Shown: in pieces, positions 1,889 to 61,129 of the stretch
Position numbering within the stretch: position 1 is the first letter of the stretch
Layout of the letters: the number at the start of each line of letters is the position of its first letter
DNA from: Azadirachta indica
Lineage: Eukaryota; Streptophyta; Magnoliopsida; Sapindales; Meliaceae
Length of the DNA stretch: 64,000 bases
Direction: 5' to 3'
Assembly: GCA_022749755.1 (NCBI GenBank)
Contig: CM040445.1
Coordinates: 7,709,182-7,773,181, forward strand
Translations under genes and position numbers: made by a program
Notes under the pieces: model-generated
Seen by the model: the letters and a program-made list of their open reading frames with translations, nothing else
The model's database searches: none
Told to the model about the DNA's origin: nothing

Positions 1889-2032
1889 GTTACGGAAAAC
1901 CAGCTCCAAAAATAATCTTCTAACACTAATCTGATTGAATGAAGATTATAATTTGATAAAAACTATCAGTTCCGACCAGATAAGGAACACAAGATACAAA
2001 AACAATAGGTAAGATCAGAGACAAAAGAATTA
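1889..2032 (-). mobile_element. Copia LTR remnant (3' LTR on minus strand), truncated by Gypsy insertion
   Basis: Starts with 'tgttacggaaaaccagctcc' and matches the first 144 bp of the intact LTR at 35,674 in copy B. It stops where the plus-strand Gypsy LTR sequence begins; the two share 'tta' at the junction. The rest of this LTR and most of the Copia interior (copy B 35,820 to about 37,715) are missing from copy A. Confidence 0.85.
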
Positions 2033-2650
2033 TTTTCTTGTTGTAATTTGAACTTCAATTAAATGATGTATTTCTAATTTCATAATTAGGGCTAAAAGTG
2101 AACTTTTGATGATTTTATAGTTTTGTTATTTGATCCTTTATTTTGTTCTTCATTGTTAATCTTTTTATTGATTGAGTACTATATTTTGCAAGAGATTTTG
2201 AATTGTTAGAAACCTTGATTCATTGTTAACAAATGGTACATTGAATATTTGGATATTTTCTACATATCAAGAGTAAGGTAACTTATAGTTTTTCACTATC
2301 AACTAAAAGGTAAGTCTTTTGATTTCTTTGTACTTAAATATTTTGTTTTCATCATCCAATTAAGATCATTTCTTTTGATTCTTAATTGTGTTTTTCTTTA
2401 AAAAAAAAAGGATCAAGAATAAGTTCTATACAAATCATTAAAATAGATCCCTAATGCCCTAATATATAATAATATTGAATTTAAATTTGACAATAAACAA
2501 ATTCACTCCATTTTTATAATATTGGAATATTTGGACTTATAATATTTAGACTTTTGGACTTGTGGACTTAATATAACATATTCCCTGTGGACCGACACTC
2601 GGACTTTCGAACTTTATTATTTGAGATAACCTATACTTGAGAGTTACAAC
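2031..2650 (+). repeat. 5' LTR of the Athila/Tat-type element, lacking about 780 bp of U3
   Basis: Aligns with 11,656-12,274 of the 3' LTR. The 3' LTR has about 780 further bases on its left side (from 10,876) that are absent here, so the 5' copy has lost most of its U3 region and probably its promoter. It ends '...gagagttaca'. Confidence 0.85.
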
Positions 2651-2673
2651 CTTTAAGTTGTAGCAAGTTTTTG

Positions 2674-2691
2674 GCGTCGTTGCCGGAAAAT
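2674..2691 (+). promoter_or_regulatory. Primer-binding site, tRNA-Asp type
   Basis: tggcgtcgttgccggaa matches, with few mismatches, the complement of the 3' end of plant tRNA-Asp(GUC), whose usual primer-site form is TGGCGCCGTTGCCGGGGA. It lies 23 bases after the 5' LTR end. This primer choice is common in Athila and Tat elements. Confidence 0.8.
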
Positions 2692-3028
2692 ACGGTTTGT
2701 ATAAAGTTTACTAGTTCTTATTTAATTTTCTTTTACTAACTTTAACCTCTAACTTTAATATTTTTTTTATTTACTTGTTGTTATTTATTTTTATTAGGAG
2801 GCTCAGCCACCCATTTATATTTACATTATGGTTGGTTCTACATATACCACCTAACTCTTGTTTTTTTTTTATTTTGTTCATGATAGGCTTTGCCACCTTT
2901 CTTAATTTTTTTTTCTATTATGTATTGTGTTGTTATTTTCATTTACAATAATTTTAGTAAGAGGAAGGTTATACCACCTCTTTTCTTTTTTTATTTTTTT
3001 ATTGTGTTTTATTATTATTATTATTTTT

Positions 3029-4105
3029 ATGCTTAGATGGTATCGTGATCCTCATTCTCATCGATTGGTGAAAGGTAATTCTGAAACCTCCTTTGAAAAT
3101 TTGTTTGATTCATCTTCAAACTCACACACAACTGACACTATGGCTGAAAATGAAAGTATACATGGAGAAAATGAAAATCATCATGTTCGAACTATGCGTG
3201 AATATTTGCAATCTCCTCGAAATTCATCTCCTTCATGTTTTATTTTTCCGCTTAATGCAAATAACTTTATATTTAAGCCCGGTATGATTCCTTTACTTCC
3301 TAATTTCCATGGCTTAGAGTCTGAGAGTTTTTATTTGCATTTGAAAGAATTTGAGGAAGTATGTGCCACATTTATGGATCAAACATGTAGTGAAGAAATA
3401 ATTAAGCTAAAATTGTTTCCTTTTTCTTTAAAAGATAAAGTAAAAACATGGCTTAATTCATTAAGACTTAGATCTATAGGCACATGGCAAGAAATGCAAA
3501 CTAAGTTTTTAAAGCAATTTTTTCCAATACATAAAACGAATGCTTTCAAGAGACAAATTCAAAATTTTTGTCAAAAAGGAAATGAAACCTATTTTCAATG
3601 TTTGGAAAGATTTAAAAACTTGTTGAATTCATGCCCACACCATGGTTTTGAAAAATGGCGTACGATAAGTTTCTTTTATGAAGGGTTAACACCAGAGACA
3701 AAACAATTTGTTGAAACAATGTGTAATGGTGAATTTTTAGACAAAGATCCAGAAGAAGCTTTAGAGTATTTAGATCATTTAGTTGAGAACTCTCAATTCT
3801 GGCAAACCACTAGTTCCTCTGAAAATTCAATTAAATCTAATATGGCTAGTTCTAGTGGGGGTAAATATAATTTGAGCCAAGAAGATGATCTAAGTGCTAA
3901 AATTACAAATTTAACGAGAAAGATTGAAGTCATGGAATTAACGAAAGTTAAAGAGGTCAAATCTGTGCATAATGATGAAATTTGTAAAATTTGTGAAGTC
4001 ATGGGACATTCCACTCAAGATTGTCCAAATATTCCTACTTTTAAAAAAGTGTTGCATTACCAAACAAATTCTATGAATTCCTTCAAAAAGTTTTTTTTCC
4101 TCTAA
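3029..4105 (+). pseudogene. gag: gag of the Athila/Tat-type element (frameshifted at 3' end)
   Basis: Capsid-like protein that would package element RNA. The frame is open from 2,927, but that upstream part is a hydrophobic, low-complexity reading of T-rich DNA, so a start at 3,029 or later is preferred. The retrotransposon gag domain lies roughly at 3,290-3,780 (for example 'LKLFPFSLKDKVKTWLNSL', 'FFPIHKTNAFKRQIQNF', 'FYEGLTPETKQFVETMCNG'). A CCHC zinc knuckle, C-x2-C-x4-H-x4-C (CKICEVMGHSTQDC), lies near 3,981-4,022. After a run of eight T at about 4,091 the frame shifts; the Pro/Ser/Asn-rich C-terminal tail continues in another frame to about 4,400. Confidence 0.88.
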
Positions 4106-4508: not shown

Positions 4509-5126
4509 TTGAAAGAGATTGAACCTAAAAAATCATCAAAATTAGTGAGTGAGGAAAATAATTTTGAACCTAAGATGTGTAATGTTAAAAAATGCCTTAT
4601 CCCTGCTCCTTTTCCTCAAAAATTGCAACCAATTCAAAAGTTGAACCAAAATTCTGAAATTTTTGAACTTTTTAAGCAAGTCAAAATTAACATTCCTTTG
4701 TTATATGCAATTAAGCAAGTTCCTTCTTATGCCAAATTTTTGAAAGATTTATGCACTGTTAAAAGGAAACTTAATGTTCAAAAGAAAGCATTTTTAACTA
4801 AGAATGTTAGTCCGATTATTCAATATAACACTCTACCAAAATATAAAGATCTTGCTTGTCCCACCATTTCTTGTGTAATTGGAAACTTTAGGATAAACCA
4901 TGCTTTACTTGATCTTGGTGCAAATGTTAATTTGTTGCCATATTCAGTGTATGAGCAATTAGGTTTAGGTGAGCTTAAACCTACTTCTACAATACTTCAA
5001 CTTGCTGATCGTTCTGTGAAAATACCACGAGAAATATTTGAGGATGTGAAAATACCACGAGGAATATTTGAGGATGTGTTGATAAACCGATGCCATCGAG
5101 TGTTCAACCACCAAAACTTGAATTGA
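4509..5126 (+). pseudogene. pol: Aspartic protease region of pol (Athila/Tat-type element)
   Basis: A 205-codon open stretch. The retropepsin core has the Athila/Tat-style active-site string LLDLGANVNLLPYSVYEQLG at about residues 132-151, followed by 'TILQLADRSVKIPR'. A short in-frame tandem duplication (the unit 'VKIPRxIFED' occurs twice) lies near 5,019-5,078. The frame then ends, and a frameshift separates this piece from the reverse-transcriptase frame that starts near 5,297. The family's job is to cleave the polyprotein; this copy cannot make a full Gag-Pol. Confidence 0.85.
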
Positions 5127-5296: not shown

Positions 5297-6660
5297 TTGA
5301 TTTGCACACATAAGATATATTTGGAAGATAATGCCAAATTATCTAGACAAATGCAACGTAGGCTAAATCCTAATATGAAAGAGGTAGTGAGAAATGAAGT
5401 TCTCAAGATTTTAGATGTGGGGATCATTTATCTTATTTCTGATAGCACATGGGTAAGTTCTACACAAGTTGTACCTAAGAAATCTAGAGTTACTGTAGTC
5501 AAAAATGAAAATAATGAATTAATTCCAACTAGAACAATTACTGGCTGGAGAATGTGCATTGTCTATAGGAAATTCAATTCAATGACTAGGAAAGACCATT
5601 TCCCGTTACCATTCATAGATCAAATGTTAGAAAGGGTAGCTGGACATGCATTTTATTGTTTCCTAGATGGGTATTCTGGGTATATCTAAATTGAAATTGC
5701 ACCTGAAGTCCAAGAAAAGACCACTTTCACTTGTCCATTTGAAACTTTTGCATATAGAAGGATGTCATTTGGATTGTGTAATGCACCAGCTATATTTCAA
5801 AGATGCATGCTTAGTATTTTTAGTGATATGGTTGAACGATTTCTTGAAATTTTCATGGATGATTTTTCTATTTTTGGTGATTCATTTAAGGATTGCTTAT
5901 CTAACTTGGAAAAAGTTTTGATTAGGTGTGAAGAAAAGAATCTTGTGCTTAATTAGGAAAAATGTCATTTCATGATCACAAATGGTATTGTGTTTGGTCA
6001 CATTGTCTTATCAAAAGGAATTGAAGTAGATAAATCTAAAATTGAATTAATTGCCAATTTACCTGTTCCTAAGTCTGTTAAAGATGTTAGATCATTTTTA
6101 GGACATGCTGATTTTTATAGGAGATTTATCAAAGACTTTAGTGTTATATTAAGACCATTGTGCAATCTCTTATTAAAAGATGCTCTCTTTGAGTGGACTC
6201 AGTCATGTCAAGAAGTTTTTGTCAAACTTAAAGCCATGCTGACATCTGCTCCTATCATGCAGCCTCCAAATTGGACTTTGCCTTTTGAAATCATGTGCGA
6301 TGCTAACGATTATGCTGTTGGAGCTGTTTTAGGACAACGAAAGGACAAGAAACCCTATGTGATTTACTATACTAGTAAAACCTTAAATAGTGCTCAAATG
6401 AATTATTCTACCACTAAAAAGGAATTACTTGCAGTAGTATTTGCATTGGATAAATTTTAATCTTATCTTGTTGGCTCACCTATTGTGATTTTTAGTGATC
6501 ATGCAGCATTAAAATATCTTCTCTCAAAAAAGGATGCTAAATCTAGATTGATTAGGTGAATTCTGTTACTTCAAGAATTTGATCTCACAATTCAAGACAA
6601 AAAAGGAGTATAAAATGTGGTTGCTGATCACTTGTCAGGACTTAAGTTTGAAGAATCGAT
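5297..6660 (+). pseudogene. pol: Reverse transcriptase and RNase H of pol (in-frame stops)
   Basis: One continuous reading frame from 5,297 through the integrase, broken only by in-frame stop codons (5,689, 5,956, 6,460, 6,559, 6,613). Reverse-transcriptase motifs are clear: 'VVPKKS' and 'GWRMCIVYRKFNSMTRKDHFP' regions, 'FLDGYSGY', 'RRMSFGLCNAPAIFQRCM' and the catalytic FMDDF. Then come 'FLGHADFYRRFIKDFS' and the RNase H region ('DANDYAVGAVLGQ', 'YYTSKTLNSAQMNYSTTKKELLAVVFA', 'FSDHAALKYLLSKKDAK'). Several stops fall where the family has Trp (for example before EKCHF and before ILLLQEFD). Not functional as it stands. Confidence 0.92.
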
Positions 6661-6763
6661 TGAGACAACACCGATTAATGACAATTCTCCTGATGAGCAA
6701 CTTTTCAATGTTTCTATTTTACCTTGATTTGCTGATATTGTCAATTTTTTTGTTATAGGTCAA

Positions 6764-8020
6764 ATGCCAAATTATTGGAATGCTCAAGATAAAAAGAAAT
6801 TTTTAAGGGAGGTATGTAATTTCTTTTGGGGTAATCCATATTTTTTCAAATATTGCCCTGACCAAATTATAAAGAGATGTGTACCTAACAATGAAATTCA
6901 AAATATCATTTCTTTTTGCCATTTCGAAGCATGTGATGGTCATTTTTCTTCAAAGAAAACTGCTGCGAAAATATTGCAATGTGGATTTTATTGGCCCACC
7001 TTATTTAAAGACATAAATACATTTTGTAAAACATGTGACCGTTGTCAAAAATTAGGTGGAATAACTTGTAGAAACATGATACCATTAAATTCTATTTTAA
7101 TCATTGAAATATTTAATTGTTGGAGCATTGATTTTATGGGTCCTTTTCCATCTTCTTTTGCGGATCAATACATTTTAGTTGGAGTTGATTATGTTTCAAA
7201 ATGGGTAGAGACAACTTCTTGCAAAAATAATGATCATCAAATTGTTTTGAAATTTTTAAAAGAAAACATTTTTTCAAGATTTGGAGTGCCTCGAGCCATA
7301 ATAAGTGATGGAGATTTACATTTTTGTAATAAACTTTTTGAGAATTTAATGAAAAAATATGGAATTACACATAAAGTGTCAACCCCTTATCATCCACAAA
7401 CAAGTAGACAAGTTGAACTTGCCAATAGAGAAATAAAACATATTTTGGAAAAAACGGTAAGCCTGAATCGTAAGGATTGGTCTTTAAAACTAACCGATGC
7501 ACTTTGAGCTTATCGAACTACTTTTAAATCATCACTTGGCATGTATCCTTATAGACTTGTTTTTGGAAAAGCTTGTCACCTATCGGTGGAATTAGAACAT
7601 AAAGCTTTTTGGGCCATTAAAATGCTTAATTTTGACTTAGATAAATCAGGATCATTGAGAAAACTCCAAATAGATGAACCCGAAGAAATTAAGAATGAAA
7701 CTTACAAGAATTCTAGAATTTACAAAGAGAAAATGAAGGTGTATCATGGTAAACATATCATTAAAAAATCATTTGAACCTTCACAAAAAGTTCTTTTGTA
7801 TGATTCAAGATTGCATCTATTTCCTGGCAAACTTTGCTTAAAATAGACAGGTCCTTTCATTGTTAAGAAGGTTTACCCATATGGCGCTGTTGAGATTAAG
7901 AACTCCAAAAATGATAATGTTTTTAATGTTAATGGACATCGTTTAAAGCCATTCTTTGAGAATTTTCCAAGCGAGTTAGAGATAATCACTTTGAATGAAT
8001 CTGTTTACAACACTGGATGA
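6764..8020 (+). pseudogene. pol: Integrase of pol (in-frame stops)
   Basis: Same frame as the reverse transcriptase. A zinc-binding region (H near '[18 protein letters not shown]', then 'CKTCDRCQK') is followed by the catalytic core: D in 'SIDFMGPFP', D in 'IISDGDLHF', and E in '[13 protein letters not shown]', with '[12 protein letters not shown]' just before it. Stops at 7,507 (family Trp in DALWAYRT) and 7,846 (family Trp before TGPF). The C-terminal tail ends near 8,020 ('FNVNGHRLKPFFENF'). It joins element cDNA to host DNA in live relatives. Confidence 0.9.
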
Positions 8021-8126: not shown

Positions 8127-8666
8127 GTGACTCTTCAAGTCGGTTCTTTCAGTTGCCCAAAATTACTGATAGTATTTTTTTTTCTCTCACTTCTTTTTAT
8201 ATTCTTTTCTTTCATTATGGATGTCATTCTTTCTAGATTGCAAACATATTTTCCTTCTTTTCCTAAAAATGTTCTACGAAAAATGTACCAAGTTAGGTGT
8301 GCAAGATTAAGAATGCTTATGCAAAAAGGTATTTCTGAAGATGTACGATGGATAATTGAAGTAAAGGTACGTTTAGCAGGTGAGTTTTCTGATTCATTTG
8401 TTTCACGCATGCCTGGTTTAGGTAAGAGCTCTTTTGCAAAGAAACGAAGAGCGAAAAGGTTACAAGTGTGTCACAATTGTGCACATTCAACCTGTAACAA
8501 GCGATGTTGTTCTCTAGGCATGGTGTCTACTAATAGAGAAGATAAAATTAAATTCATCAAGGATGGACTGAGTAAGGAGTCTTTAGATAATATCTTATTG
8601 ACTCTTGAGACGTATCCTAGTGGATATGTGCAACGTAAAATACTCAATTTCTATACATTATTTTAA
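8127..8666 (+). CDS. Accessory ORF: Cys-rich basic protein, betaflexivirus NABP-like
   Basis: An intact 179-codon ORF between integrase and the LOG ORF. The first ATG gives a hydrophobic N-terminus from T-rich DNA; the ATG at 8,217 (149 codons, MDVILSRLQTYF) is the more natural start. Residues 99-111 (from the first ATG) read GKSSFAKKRRAKR and lead into Cys 115, 118, 123, 127 and 128, then 'DKIKFIKDGLSKESLD'. The order basic block, Cys cluster, short charged 'F-[IV]-K-[DE]-G' segment is the layout of the small nucleic-acid-binding Cys-rich proteins of carla- and vitiviruses, a family with RNA-silencing-suppressor members. Resemblance is by eye; the homology and any suppressor activity are inference. 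No stop interrupts it, unlike pol. Confidence 0.6.
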   Translation: MTLQVGSFSCPKLLIVFFFLSLLFIFFSFIMDVILSRLQTYFPSFPKNVLRKMYQVRCARLRMLMQKGISEDVRWIIEVKVRLAGEFSDSFVSRMPGLGKSSFAKKRRAKRLQVCHNCAHSTCNKRCCSLGMVSTNREDKIKFIKDGLSKESLDNILLTLETYPSGYVQRKILNFYTLF

Positions 8667-9068: not shown

Positions 9069-9719
9069 ATGGAAGGAGCTTCTATTCATCAATTTAAAAC
9101 TATTTGTGTTTTTTGTGGGTCAAGCCCTGGGAAAGGTGAAGAGTTTATAAAAGCAGCGGACAACCTGAGTCGAGTTTTAGTTGAGCAAAAACTTAACTTA
9201 GTGTATGGAGGAGGTAGCCTTGGGTTAATGGGATATGTGTCAACTGCCGCACATATAAAAGAGAGTGAAGTCATAGGTATCATGCTAAGGGCTTTATCTG
9301 CAGGTAACATAACTGGTAAAATAGTTGGAGAAGAACTAATGGTGTCAACAATGCATGAAAGAATTGTTAAAATGTTTGATTTTGCAGATGCTTTTATTGC
9401 CTTACTAGGTGGTTTTGGGACCTTAAAAGAAATTTTTCAAATTGCATTTTGGGCACAACTCACCGTTCATAAAAAACCCATAAAATTGTTAAATGTTAAT
9501 AGTTTTTTAAACAAGTTGTTGTCTTTTTTTGATCATGCTGTAGAACAGAATTTTATTTCACAAATGGCTCGCAAACTCCTCATTTTTGCTCCGACAGTTA
9601 ATGACTTGATCAATCAGTTGCAGAACTTTGTCCATGAACCAGATCCAACAATGACACGATTAAAATGGTCAAGTGAAAGCAGTAAAAAGCGAAAACTGGA
9701 TTTGTCACTTCATTTGTAA
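9069..9719 (+). CDS. LOG-like cytokinin riboside 5'-monophosphate phosphoribohydrolase, carried by the retrotransposon
   Basis: An intact, intronless 216-residue ORF (an in-frame ATG at 9,036 would add 11 Lys-rich residues; 9,069 fits LOG N-termini better). LOG enzymes cut ribose 5-phosphate from cytokinin nucleotides to give the active base. Landmarks: FCGSS 15-19, GGGSLGLMG 47-55, TMHER 94-98, LGGFGTLKE 113-121, WAQL 128-131, KPIKLLNV 136-143. The family motif PGGxGTxxE has Leu for Pro here but keeps GG, GT and the Glu; the MHxR Arg is kept. The C-terminal tail KKRKLDLSLHL (206-216) joins a basic, nuclear-signal-like cluster to an LxLxL EAR-like string. Host LOG genes are intron-rich, so this copy probably came from spliced RNA. 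It lies on the element's sense strand, ahead of the 3' tract. Activity is unproven. Confidence 0.9.
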   Translation: MEGASIHQFKTICVFCGSSPGKGEEFIKAADNLSRVLVEQKLNLVYGGGSLGLMGYVSTAAHIKESEVIGIMLRALSAGNITGKIVGEELMVSTMHERIVKMFDFADAFIALLGGFGTLKEIFQIAFWAQLTVHKKPIKLLNVNSFLNKLLSFFDHAVEQNFISQMARKLLIFAPTVNDLINQLQNFVHEPDPTMTRLKWSSESSKKRKLDLSLHL

Positions 9720-10875: not shown

Positions 10876-12274
10876 TGTGATGAATGTTTAAAAGTATAGG
10901 TTTATCAAGAAAAATATTATGATTCACACTTAATAATGTTCTTCTATTCCCCAATAATAAAGCATATTCCTTTATATTGAATTGTAAAACATGAATTGGA
11001 CTAAATAGTTGGTTTTGCGCAGGTTTCGTATAAGGAGCGTATCTTTCAATCCAAATTATCAATTGATACGATTCTAGGGCTGGACAAACATAAACTCATC
11101 ATTTCACAATTTTTTGAGGTAAAGGTTGGACTAGTTCGAGCAATTAATGGGACGAAATTGGGCTTCAACAGAACTCAAGCGCATCTTAGAACTAGCCCAA
11201 CATACTTCTGTATTTGGGCCGTATCTCCCTAAATATGCAACAAACAATTATACGATTAGGTGATCTAGAAATCTGAGAAAAGGATCTAAATTTTTTATGT
11301 TTTGTATTTTCTCAAATTTCAACTGATCGGTTACCAAAAAGAGCTATCATTCTAGAAGGGCGGTGGAGAAATGTGACTTGAATATCTTTGCCTATTTTCA
11401 ATACAATTCACGGTCTAAAATAGAAATAAGAGTGAGGTATGGACCATTAGAAAGATGAGTCATCCACCTACAACTTTGAAGAAGGATGCTTTACGAAATT
11501 CGATGATTTTCATAGTCAAAAATATGTTGGAAATTGGTAGAGCGTGATTAATTGGAAATTGACCAAATTATGTTCACACATGTGGAATGTCTTTTGTTTT
11601 ACCTATATAAAGGAAGACGTGGAAGTGAGGAGGGGGATCAGTTTTGTTTCCATTTTTATTTTCTTGTTGTAATTTGAACTTCAATTAAATGATGTATTTC
11701 TAATTTCGTAATTAGGGCTAAAAGTGAACTTTTGATGATTTTATAGTTTTGTTATTTGATCCTTTGTTTTGTTCTTCATTGTTAATTTTTTTATTGATTG
11801 AGTACTATATTTTGCAAGAGATTTTGAATTGTTAGAAACCTTGATTCATTGTTAACAAATGGTACATTGAATATTTGGATATTTTCTACATATAAGAGTA
11901 AGGCAACTTATAGTTTTTCACCATCAACTAAAAGGTAAGTCTTTTGATTTTTTTGTGCTTAAATGATTTTATTTTCATCATTCAATTAAGATCACTTCTT
12001 TTGATTCTTAATTGTATTTTTCTTTAAAAAAAAAGGATCAAGAATAAGTTCTATACAAATCATTAAAATGGATCCCTAATGCCCTAATATATAATAATAT
12101 TGAATTTAAATTTGACAATAAACAAATTCACTCCATTTCTTATAATATTGGAATATTTGGACTTGTAATATTTAGACTTTTGGACTTGTGGACTTAATAT
12201 AATATATTTCCTGTGGACCGACACTCGGACTTCCGAACTTTATTACTTGAGACAACCTATACTTGAGAGTTACA
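10876..12274 (+). repeat. 3' LTR of the Athila/Tat-type element
   Basis: Starts TGTGATGAATG right after the G tract and ends ...GAGAGTTACA. Bases 11,656-12,274 align with the 5' LTR remnant at 2,031-2,650; 10,876-11,655 (U3) have no counterpart on the 5' side. The sequence following it, acctttaa, is also found in Copia DNA at copy B 37,692, matching the insertion point. Confidence 0.85.
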
Positions 12275-13159
12275 ACCTTTAACATTGAAATTTAGGCAGA
12301 GACATTATTACTTGGGAACTTAGCTTTGATAACAATTGTTGCGGCTAACCAGCCTTAGTAACAATGCCCTAATACTGATATAATTGAATCAAGATTACGA
12401 TATGATAAAAACTATCAGGTCTGACTGAATAATGAACACAAAACACAAAAATAATAAGTAAGATTAGAGACAAACAAGAATTACATGGTTTGGCAAAATT
12501 GCCTACATCCATGGAGCAAACACATGTAAGGGTTTTTATTAGAAGTGAAAGATACAAGATGACTCCCTTTTCTAAAATCACCTCTCTTTAATTTCTCCCC
12601 CTCTTTTCCCTTTCCTTTACTTTTTCCCCTCACATCCTTTGCATCTTAATTCTCTAAAATATAGGGTTTTATAATGCCTTTAAAGAATCCTAATTCTAAT
12701 AGGTTTAGTATCTTAATTCGAGTAGCATTTGGTATCCTCTTCAGGTTAGAATTAAACACCTCATCGAGTCATCGGGTATCAGATCAGGTCCTCTTTAAGT
12801 CACAATGACTACTCCACCTTAACTCCTTGGGTCTTTAGATCTCAGGGTACTCAGGTATTAAATCAGGTCCTCTTCAAGTCAGGATGATTACTCTACCTTA
12901 ACTATTTTGGTCCTCAGGTTCTCAAGTACTAAGGATATTAGATTAGATCCTCTTCAAGTTAGGATGACTACTTTACCTTGACTCCTTGGTTCCTCAAGTT
13001 CTCAAGTACTCAGGTACTAAGATATCAGATTAAATCCACTTCAACTCATGATGACTACTCTACCTTTACTCTTTGGGTTGTTAGGTCATCGAGTCCTCTA
13101 AGGTATTTGAGTACTTAGACACTTAGGTTCTCAAGAATTTGAAGCATCTATTCTTCACA
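12275..13159 (-). mobile_element. Copia 5' LTR and primer-site region (copy A)
   Basis: 12,337-13,159 matches the LTR at 37,770-38,578 of copy B (begins tgttgcgg, ends ttcttcaca). Just left of it, 12,275-12,336 keeps a short piece of Copia leader including the degraded Met-tRNA primer site (aacaattg-side of 'tttgataacaattg'). The interior and the other LTR were lost around the Gypsy insertion. The LTR contains several imperfect copies of a 60-70-bp unit ('tcctcttcaagtcaggatgactactctaccttaac'). Confidence 0.85.
12740..13130. repeat. Imperfect internal tandem repeats in Copia LTR (copy A)
   Basis: Repeated phrase 'cctcttcaagt..ggatgactactctaccttaactc.ttggg' with 'caggtactaa' recurs about every 65-75 bp, four to five times. 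The same array occurs at about 36,100-36,360 and 38,170-38,540 in the copy B LTRs. The number of units differs between LTRs. Confidence 0.75.
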
Positions 13160-60211: not shown

Positions 60212-61129
60212 ATGGGATCTCTTTTTTCTCTCATATTGATAATTATTATTTCATTAGCATCAACGAATACTGAAGCTCAAGGTATTAAATCTGCTCGACT
60301 TCTCGATCTTCTCATCAGAGACTACACATTCAAGTCCTTTGACACTCGCTTGAAGACAGGTACACTGCACAATGTAGATTTACCAGCAAATCTTTCCGGG
60401 ATCAAAGTTGATACAGTGAGGTTTAGATGTGGGAGTCTGCGAAGATATGGTGCCAAGGTTAAAGAATTCCATCTAGGTACTGGCGTAATTGTGCAACCAT
60501 GTGTGGAGAGAGTGATGATTGTCAGGCAAAACCTGGGTTATAACTGGTCTTCTATATACTATTCCAACTATGATTTATCTGGTTATCAACTTGTATCACC
60601 TGTTTTAGGCCTTTTAGCTTATAATGCGGCCACTGATGTCAAATTCAATAACCGGTTTCAGCTTGGAATTCTGGCAAATGAAAAACCAATCACTATAGAT
60701 TTCAGAAACACTACAAGAGTCAACAATATATCAGAAATCAAGCCATTATGTGCAAACTTTCAAGGAGATGGGAAAGTGACATTGACAAACCAGGTAGCTC
60801 CCTATGTTTGTGTTGCAACAAGACATGGTCATTTTGGTTTGGTAGCTGAATCACCCCCACCAGAACCAGTCAAGAAGAACGTTAGCAGATGGAAATTGGC
60901 AGTCGGCACAACAGTTGGCTCTGCTGTGGGTGCATTTCTCTTGGGGTTGCTGTTGGTTGCAATGTTTGTTAAGGTAAAGAAGAAAGCAAGAATGGAGGAG
61001 TTGGAGAGGAGGGCTTATGAAGAGGAGGCTCTTCAGGTTTCAATGGTTGGGCATATCAGGGCTCCTACTGCACCTGTTATTAGAACAATACCTACAATTG
61101 AGCACGAGTACATACCTTACGCTTCTTGA
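60212..61129 (+). CDS. DUF1191 family single-pass membrane protein
   Basis: Intronless, 305 residues, complete. Signal peptide about residues 1-22 (MGSLFSLILIIIISLASTNTEA), then an extracellular DUF1191 domain ('LLIRDYTFKSFDTRLKTGTL', 'VDTVRFRCGSLRRYGAKVKEF', 'VERVMIVRQNLGYNWSSIYYS', 'KPLCANFQGDGKVTLTNQV'), a transmembrane helix at about 229-254, and a basic stop-transfer (KVKKKAR) leading to a cytosolic tail of about 50 residues with 'ERRAYEEEALQVSMVGH' and 'IEHEYIPYAS'. Several Asn-glycosylation sites (NWSS, NTTR, NISE) fit a secreted ectodomain. The function of the family is unknown to me. In Arabidopsis, as I remember it, the gene sits between PGRL1A and FZR2, as here. Confidence 0.93.
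   Translation: MGSLFSLILIIIISLASTNTEAQGIKSARLLDLLIRDYTFKSFDTRLKTGTLHNVDLPANLSGIKVDTVRFRCGSLRRYGAKVKEFHLGTGVIVQPCVERVMIVRQNLGYNWSSIYYSNYDLSGYQLVSPVLGLLAYNAATDVKFNNRFQLGILANEKPITIDFRNTTRVNNISEIKPLCANFQGDGKVTLTNQVAPYVCVATRHGHFGLVAESPPPEPVKKNVSRWKLAVGTTVGSAVGAFLLGLLLVAMFVKVKKKARMEELERRAYEEEALQVSMVGHIRAPTAPVIRTIPTIEHEYIPYAS

Follow-up and report, generated by a model that had tools for sequence, protein, structure and literature searches.

Why does a plant Gypsy retrotransposon carry an open reading frame (ORF) for a LOG cytokinin-activating enzyme, and what might the encoded protein do? The question is raised by the window, a 64,000-nucleotide stretch of the Azadirachta indica genome (contig CM040445.1, positions 7,709,182–7,773,181). 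The first-pass annotation, made from the letters of this stretch, had proposed that a host LOG mRNA was captured and kept, and that the element could thereby raise cytokinin locally.

The carrier is a Ty3/gypsy element with paired LTRs, a primer binding site (PBS), gag, and RNase H ahead of integrase (Table 1), and we suspect that it belongs to the Athila lineage. Its LTRs are 96.5% identical, differing by 18 transitions and 0 transversions across 625 sites (K2P 0.030); at substitution rates of 1.3e-8 to 4e-9, this corresponds to an age of roughly 1–4 My. The restriction of LTR differences to transitions, together with the dominance of C to T among shared changes in non-coding element sequence of source-genome copies, is expected of methylated, silenced copies. 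Allowing up to 2 mismatches, the PBS sequence occurs once in the window, and it is presumably tRNA-Asp-like. Profile searches placed RNase H at 5972–6460 (PF17919/PF17917) and the integrase domains at 6764–7507 (PF17921 and PF00665); the RT region (5297–5689) of this broken copy gave no match in the Pfam search and was assigned by position. Eight in-frame stops were counted in the pol frame, in line with the at least eight described earlier, of which the last, at 7844, is probably natural.

Several other features of the window were recorded. A 140-nt direct repeat, 78% identical, lies just outside both LTRs (1886–2025 and 12335–12474), and the usual termini are seemingly absent at the outer ends of both LTRs. 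An inverted repeat (435–525/596–686) has 91-nt arms, 85% complementary, spaced by 70 nt. An intact 305-codon ORF at 60212–61129 matches PF06697 (DUF1191, E 1.6e-69) and is apparently an ordinary host gene.

Table 1 Features of the LOG-bearing element, in window coordinates
Feature	Position	Strand	Basis
5′ LTR	2030–2656	+	Similarity boundaries; outermost bases indistinct
PBS	2672–2686	+	TGGCGTCGTTGCCGG, immediately 3′ of 5′ LTR
gag ORF (mechanical start)	2927–4105	+	PF03732 Retrotrans_gag, E 3.3e-20
Protease-region ORF	4509–5126	+	Weak PF13650 Asp_protease_2, E 0.0097, under its cut-off
pol frame, stop-interrupted: RT region (position only), RNase H, integrase	5297–7846	+	
Accessory ORF 1: carlavirus/allexivirus-type Cys-rich nucleic-acid-binding protein (NABP)	8217–8666	+	PF05515
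Accessory ORF 2: intronless LOG, 216 codons	9069–9719	+	Profile, structure and genome matches
LOG C-terminal tail: basic run KKRK, then LxLxL (EAR-like)	9684–9716	+	Conserved in most relatives
Polypurine tract candidate	11627–11637	+	GAGGAGGGGGA, by eye, 18 bases 5′ of 3′ LTR
3′ LTR	11656–12282	+	Partner of 5′ LTR

The two accessory ORFs and their distribution

The 216-codon sense ORF with the LOG motifs named at first pass was confirmed in the interval from integrase (6764–7846) to the 3′ LTR. It matches PF03641 (Lysine_decarbox; E 1.9e-34) and TIGR00730 (E 4.2e-47), and its best solved relative is At2g37210 (2a33; E 5.5e-55). The predicted model aligns with AtLOG3 (2a33) at TM 0.91, normalised by target, with moderate model confidence (pLDDT 73, tail below 50). 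The PF03641 domain and the predicted LOG fold thus place the protein in the LOG family. Among named LOG proteins, the closest comes from Melia azedarach, also of the Meliaceae (78% over 90%). With 12 of 84 positions conserved among relatives changed, two of these within PGGxGTxxE, the window copy reads as an eroding family member.

Other element copies with a LOG ORF were found in the source genome (280.8 Mb), which gave 152 LOG matches, 150 of them listed including the window copy; some score equally and may represent duplicated assembly stretches, and the rows are not all independent insertions. By hand count, about 120 of the 150 cover 185 residues or more without a break and hence lack introns, and 33 are stop-free. 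The earlier caution that an open frame of this length could be chance is dispelled by the 149 further LOG matches listed besides the window copy. Pairing of integrases with LOG, using the 150 listed matches plus 12 further LOG places, revealed a sharp boundary: among the matches listed, LOG lies 1.2–4.5 kb 3′ of 78 of 86 integrases at 78–100% identity and 3′ of 14 of 20 at 63–77%, versus 0 of 44 at 50–62%, where a more diverged LOG could be missed. LOG is therefore a fixed part of this Gypsy family and was not seen in neighbouring families. A late, unique insertion of LOG was rejected on the family-wide listing, the clade of element LOGs described below and the integrase pairing; a chance ORF and a host gene inside the element were likewise rejected on the genome listing, the tree and the pairing. 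Separately, several LOG-like places, both host and element (G000 C2, C5, C7 and C10), occur two to three times with identical scores and far apart, reflecting either recent duplication or assembly duplication.

Just upstream of LOG and 3′ of integrase lies a second accessory ORF, which opens at 8127; in its relatives the start coincides with the Met of 8217 or falls close by. The product scores 27.7 bits against PF05515 Viral_NABP (cut-off 23) and 20.4 bits against PF01623 Carla_C4, just under the cut-off of 20.9. A search returned 304 relatives at E ≤ 10, and the 120 listed match one or both models, with Populus, Xanthoceras, Rhamnella, Acer and Orobanche among the named hosts. PF05515 was matched at E ≤ 1e-3 by 20 of 22 aligned proteins, and in these 22 rows a four-Cys cluster follows a basic run (C118, C123 and C127 invariant, C115 at least 90%). 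The predicted structure was too poor for use (pLDDT 56). NABP precedes LOG by 0.6–1.8 kb, start to start (median 0.87), in 116 of the 150 listed rows, versus 0 in a control shifted by 50 kb. The better source-genome NABP matches are ~85–93% identical to that of the window, and LOG is lower at ~77–85%. In other species, contigs of the same size appear in both the LOG and NABP lists (8723 for P0010/P0144; 4511 for P0085/P0125), which suggests that the two genes travel together there as well. IMG/VR contigs yielded no LOG or NABP relatives in a search with single proteins, a type of query limited to close relatives. Silencing suppression has been ascribed to carlavirus Cys-rich proteins (CRPs), and in a related mandarivirus CRP the NLS and zinc finger play a part in symptoms (PMC12172455).

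On balance, we favour the view that LOG is the second accessory gene of an old Ty3/gypsy family and forms, with NABP, a two-gene host-manipulation cassette, the anatomy and age of which are directly evident and the function of which we infer. According to this proposal, a processed LOG mRNA would have been captured either ahead of the divergence of the known host lineages or in a single event followed by spread among them, and active elements would have retained it. The tail would carry the LOG protein into the nucleus and let it bind TOPLESS-type corepressors, the LOG fold would bind or cleave a nucleotide, not necessarily a precursor of cytokinin, and NABP would counter RNA silencing; both proteins would act like small viral effectors, lowering host restraint during the RNA stage of the element. 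A more specific version, which we hold only tentatively, is a counter-defence pair across rosids and asterids, in which an NABP suppressor would be joined by a LOG-fold enzyme retuned to a non-cytokinin nucleotide (e.g., an immune or stress signal) and aimed by NLS and EAR motifs at nuclear TOPLESS complexes.

Active site and C-terminal tail of the element LOG

Residue roles were taken from CgLOG (PMC4979012; numbering one lower here) and tabulated for 184 of 189 element LOG proteins, leaving out four Xanthoceras proteins and one short protein; the 184 are not independent, since Reevesia and Populus-like sequences are abundant. Of the 184, 171 retain the catalytic Arg and 180 the catalytic Glu (R98 and E121 in the window). 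The adenine/prenyl pocket (Met, His, Lys, Glu and Trp) is altered, window included: Lys is replaced by Met, Ile or Leu in 182 proteins and the prenyl-pocket Glu by Gln or His in 178, His is retained in 73, and Trp is retained in most. All 8 host-type sequences plus Xanthoceras P0108 keep the catalytic pair and the pocket Lys, Glu and His. The 29 other source-genome copies show the element pattern, one of them read a residue out of register. Against the NCBIfam equivalog model NF058542, from a library built for bacterial and archaeal annotation, the window LOG scores 100 versus a cut-off of 300. This altered pocket across element LOGs appears to be a new observation, and it suggests that the cytokinin substrate has likely been changed or lost and that the protein does not simply release cytokinin.

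The idea that LOG raises cytokinin, put forward at first pass, thus becomes doubtful: replacement of the pocket Lys and Glu in nearly all element LOGs, set against their retention in every host-type sequence, argues against plain cytokinin activation, and alanine changes at CgLOG active-site residues abolished nearly all activity, S19A excepted (PMC4979012). The alternative that the enzyme still activates cytokinin, with raised local levels favouring dividing or meristem-like cells, keeps the LOG fold, the catalytic Arg/Glu pair and, in most proteins, the phosphate-binding GGxGT on its side. In addition, wheat LOGs with the same critical residues differ in activity (PMC11593424), so the residues do not by themselves reveal what the enzyme does, and the prenyl pocket was itself deduced, not observed with a bound substrate (PMC4979012). 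We regard continued cytokinin activation as rather unlikely.

The window LOG ends in KKRKLDLSLHL. An LxLxL motif lies within 3 residues of the C-terminus in 146 of 173 full-length relatives (those of the 189 with at least 213 residues) and is present in 28 of the 29 other source-genome copies; it is absent from all 7 host-type LOG tails inspected. The tail is conserved, whereas the segment leading from the last Trp to the basic run is variable. By hand count, the 27 misses include 15 from Orobanche, in which the basic run is kept and LxLxL altered, and 3 from Xanthoceras; four Xanthoceras proteins lack LxLxL, and gene models there may be faulty. We take the tail to resemble the SUPERMAN domain. 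LxLxL, although a short motif, is one of two EAR repressor patterns (PMC6479872), and pathogen effectors that interact with TOPLESS have been reported (PMC7446885, PMC8126959). A basic run followed by LxLxL at the end of most element LOGs appears to be a further new feature, and resembles an NLS joined to an EAR motif of the kind that binds TOPLESS.

A basic run with a leucine-rich end would equally suit nuclear import or particle packaging, and the Orobanche tails retain the former and not LxLxL. The tail might accordingly serve the element cycle instead of acting as an EAR motif, with LOG as a dimeric scaffold or nucleotide binder. The position of LxLxL so close to the C-terminus in most full-length relatives speaks against this, and the catalytic pair and pocket Trp, kept in most proteins, suggest more than a scaffold; we consider such a role unlikely.

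Conservation and origin of the element LOG

Conservation between species was assessed on 23 representatives chosen at <80% identity from 106 full-length proteins among 120 listed, 21 of which entered the column analysis (P0001 and P0039 left out), against a neutral codon simulation on the tree of the 21 scaled to the same mean identity of 0.64. At ≥95% identity, 66 LOG columns were conserved, compared with 27 on average and never more than 36 in 100 simulations; at ≥90%, there were 84 columns, whereas the simulations averaged 58 and peaked at 79, a small margin. The frame would stay open by chance in ~8% of lineages in the neutral simulation, an estimate to be set against a biased sample of open LOGs, as the database lists predicted proteins only.

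A different picture emerged within the source genome, where the best 30 of the 150 listed LOG matches were compared. Pooled Nei–Gojobori ratios were 0.73 for LOG, NABP and the integrase end alike, all within the range of four non-coding pseudo-frames (0.53–0.85), indicating no clear selection; the proposed comparison of LOG with pol therefore did not set LOG apart. In the spectrum-based analysis, N/S relative to expectation was 0.90 for LOG singletons (p 0.62) and 0.78 for shared changes (p 0.17), 0.66 (p 0.06) and 0.94 for NABP, and 1.34 and 0.93 for the integrase end. Stop changes occurred at the expected neutral level, and changes at conserved LOG sites were not clearly avoided among these copies. 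Per site, LOG and NABP showed roughly two fifths to two thirds as many changes as expected from non-coding sequence, a deficit that alignment errors in non-coding sequence could explain. Selection on the window copy itself is not supported, given its changed conserved positions and neutral-fitting relatives.

Between-species conservation combined with neutral copies within the genome suggests that active lineages keep LOG while inserted copies decay. The claim that LOG was kept consequently is supported over the long time between plant families and finds no support within the source genome. A functionless captured passenger would fit the neutral-looking changes and stops among source-genome copies and the small number of stop-free matches. 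Conservation between families exceeds the neutral simulation, clearly at ≥95% and narrowly at ≥90%, and few lineages would remain open by chance, subject to the bias noted above; a passenger is thus improbable.

As to origin, six host LOG genes checked in the source genome each have seven coding segments with common intron positions, bearing out the statement that host LOGs contain several introns. Host LOGs with introns and element LOGs without them therefore indicate capture of an mRNA, and capture of a processed host LOG by a Gypsy element is supported. In an unrooted tree of 63 rows, including 29 of the 120 listed proteins and 25 source-genome copies, the element LOGs form one clade (100/99) apart from host LOGs. 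It comprises sequences from the source genome, Melia, Populus, Malvaceae, Parasponia and Paulownia, and Xanthoceras P0108 falls between this clade and the host LOGs. This single clade of rosid and asterid element LOGs appears to be a new finding. In Xanthoceras P0250, a stretch resembling the protease-region ORF of the window was seen by eye between two LOG pieces, which fits an element in Xanthoceras too. With the Paulownia protein as query, 4875 relatives were found at E ≤ 1e-3, host LOGs perhaps among them. The 120 of these that were listed include clusters at 90% identity from the parasitic Orobanche with 244 (P0293) and up to 328 (P0295) members, pointing to large amplification of element LOGs there.

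A second family of intronless LOG retrocopies, distinct from that of the Gypsy element and near host LOG L062, occurs in other repeats of the source genome (L031–L036 and L038; G000 C5, C7 and C14). Among these, L031–L033 are ~99.5% identical over 7.5 kb, and several members hold stops or gaps. L034 lacks the element-type tail, groups with L062 (99/89) and adjoins a PF13963 transposase-associated gene, which we take to mark a CACTA-type DNA transposon; this suggests capture of the L034 LOG by such a transposon. Several independent captures with convergent tails, for which this retrocopy offers a precedent, are scarcely tenable, as L034 sides with a host LOG and is tailless, the Gypsy LOGs form one clade, and most of the 21 representatives differ from host LOGs at 29 of 100 host-invariant positions.

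Relation to known systems

If the cassette reading is right, selection has long preserved virus-like accessory genes in a plant retrotransposon lineage, including one for an enzyme of a hormone pathway whose pocket is changed and whose tail is repressor-like, and the role of extra ORFs in plant LTR elements becomes testable by single-protein assays. There is also a warning for annotation: the names LOGL10 and cytokinin riboside phosphoribohydrolase, as given to proteins of Populus, Melia and Rehmannia, probably stand for transposon genes, whose products may have no cytokinin activity.

LOG-bearing Gypsy elements are not wholly new. LTR-element consensi with YgdH/LOG domains have already been published for Citrus sinensis, C. 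clementina and Populus trichocarpa (PMC9289625, citing Steinbauerova 2011). Those elements share the LOG-family domain with ours, the extra domains of that screen were all in Gypsy-type elements, and the Populus proteins fall in the same clade of element LOGs; the accessible part of PMC9289625, in contrast, describes neither a tail nor an altered pocket, and neither an adjoining NABP nor a tree of the LOGs. The NABP neighbour, pocket change and tail were not found reported in open-licence PMC papers.

A Phalaenopsis Gypsy family with an AlkB RNA demethylase ORF likewise captured and kept an extra enzyme ORF, although the enzyme is a different one, is active in vitro and, in that account, is reported from Phalaenopsis only (PMC9289625). 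The aORF-3S/env-like ORFs of plant Gypsy elements likewise lie in sense orientation after pol and ahead of the 3′ LTR, but these are env-like, some with transmembrane segments (PMC7264820), whereas LOG and a virus-type NABP are found here. Retand elements have long regions between pol and the 3′ LTR with extra ORFs; unlike ours, these are mostly antisense TRP28 ORFs, and the sense ORFs are described, in the portion of PMC11963269 available, as being without known domains. NABP resembles the Cys-rich proteins of carlaviruses, allexiviruses and mandariviruses in its PF05515/PF01623 match and in having a Cys cluster after a basic run (PMC12172455), but it is encoded by a retrotransposon, and its silencing role is predicted from this likeness. 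With the plant LOG enzymes (AtLOG3, 2a33; At5g11950, 1ydh), finally, the element LOG has the fold and the catalytic pair in common, and it departs from them in being intronless, in its altered pocket and in its added tail.
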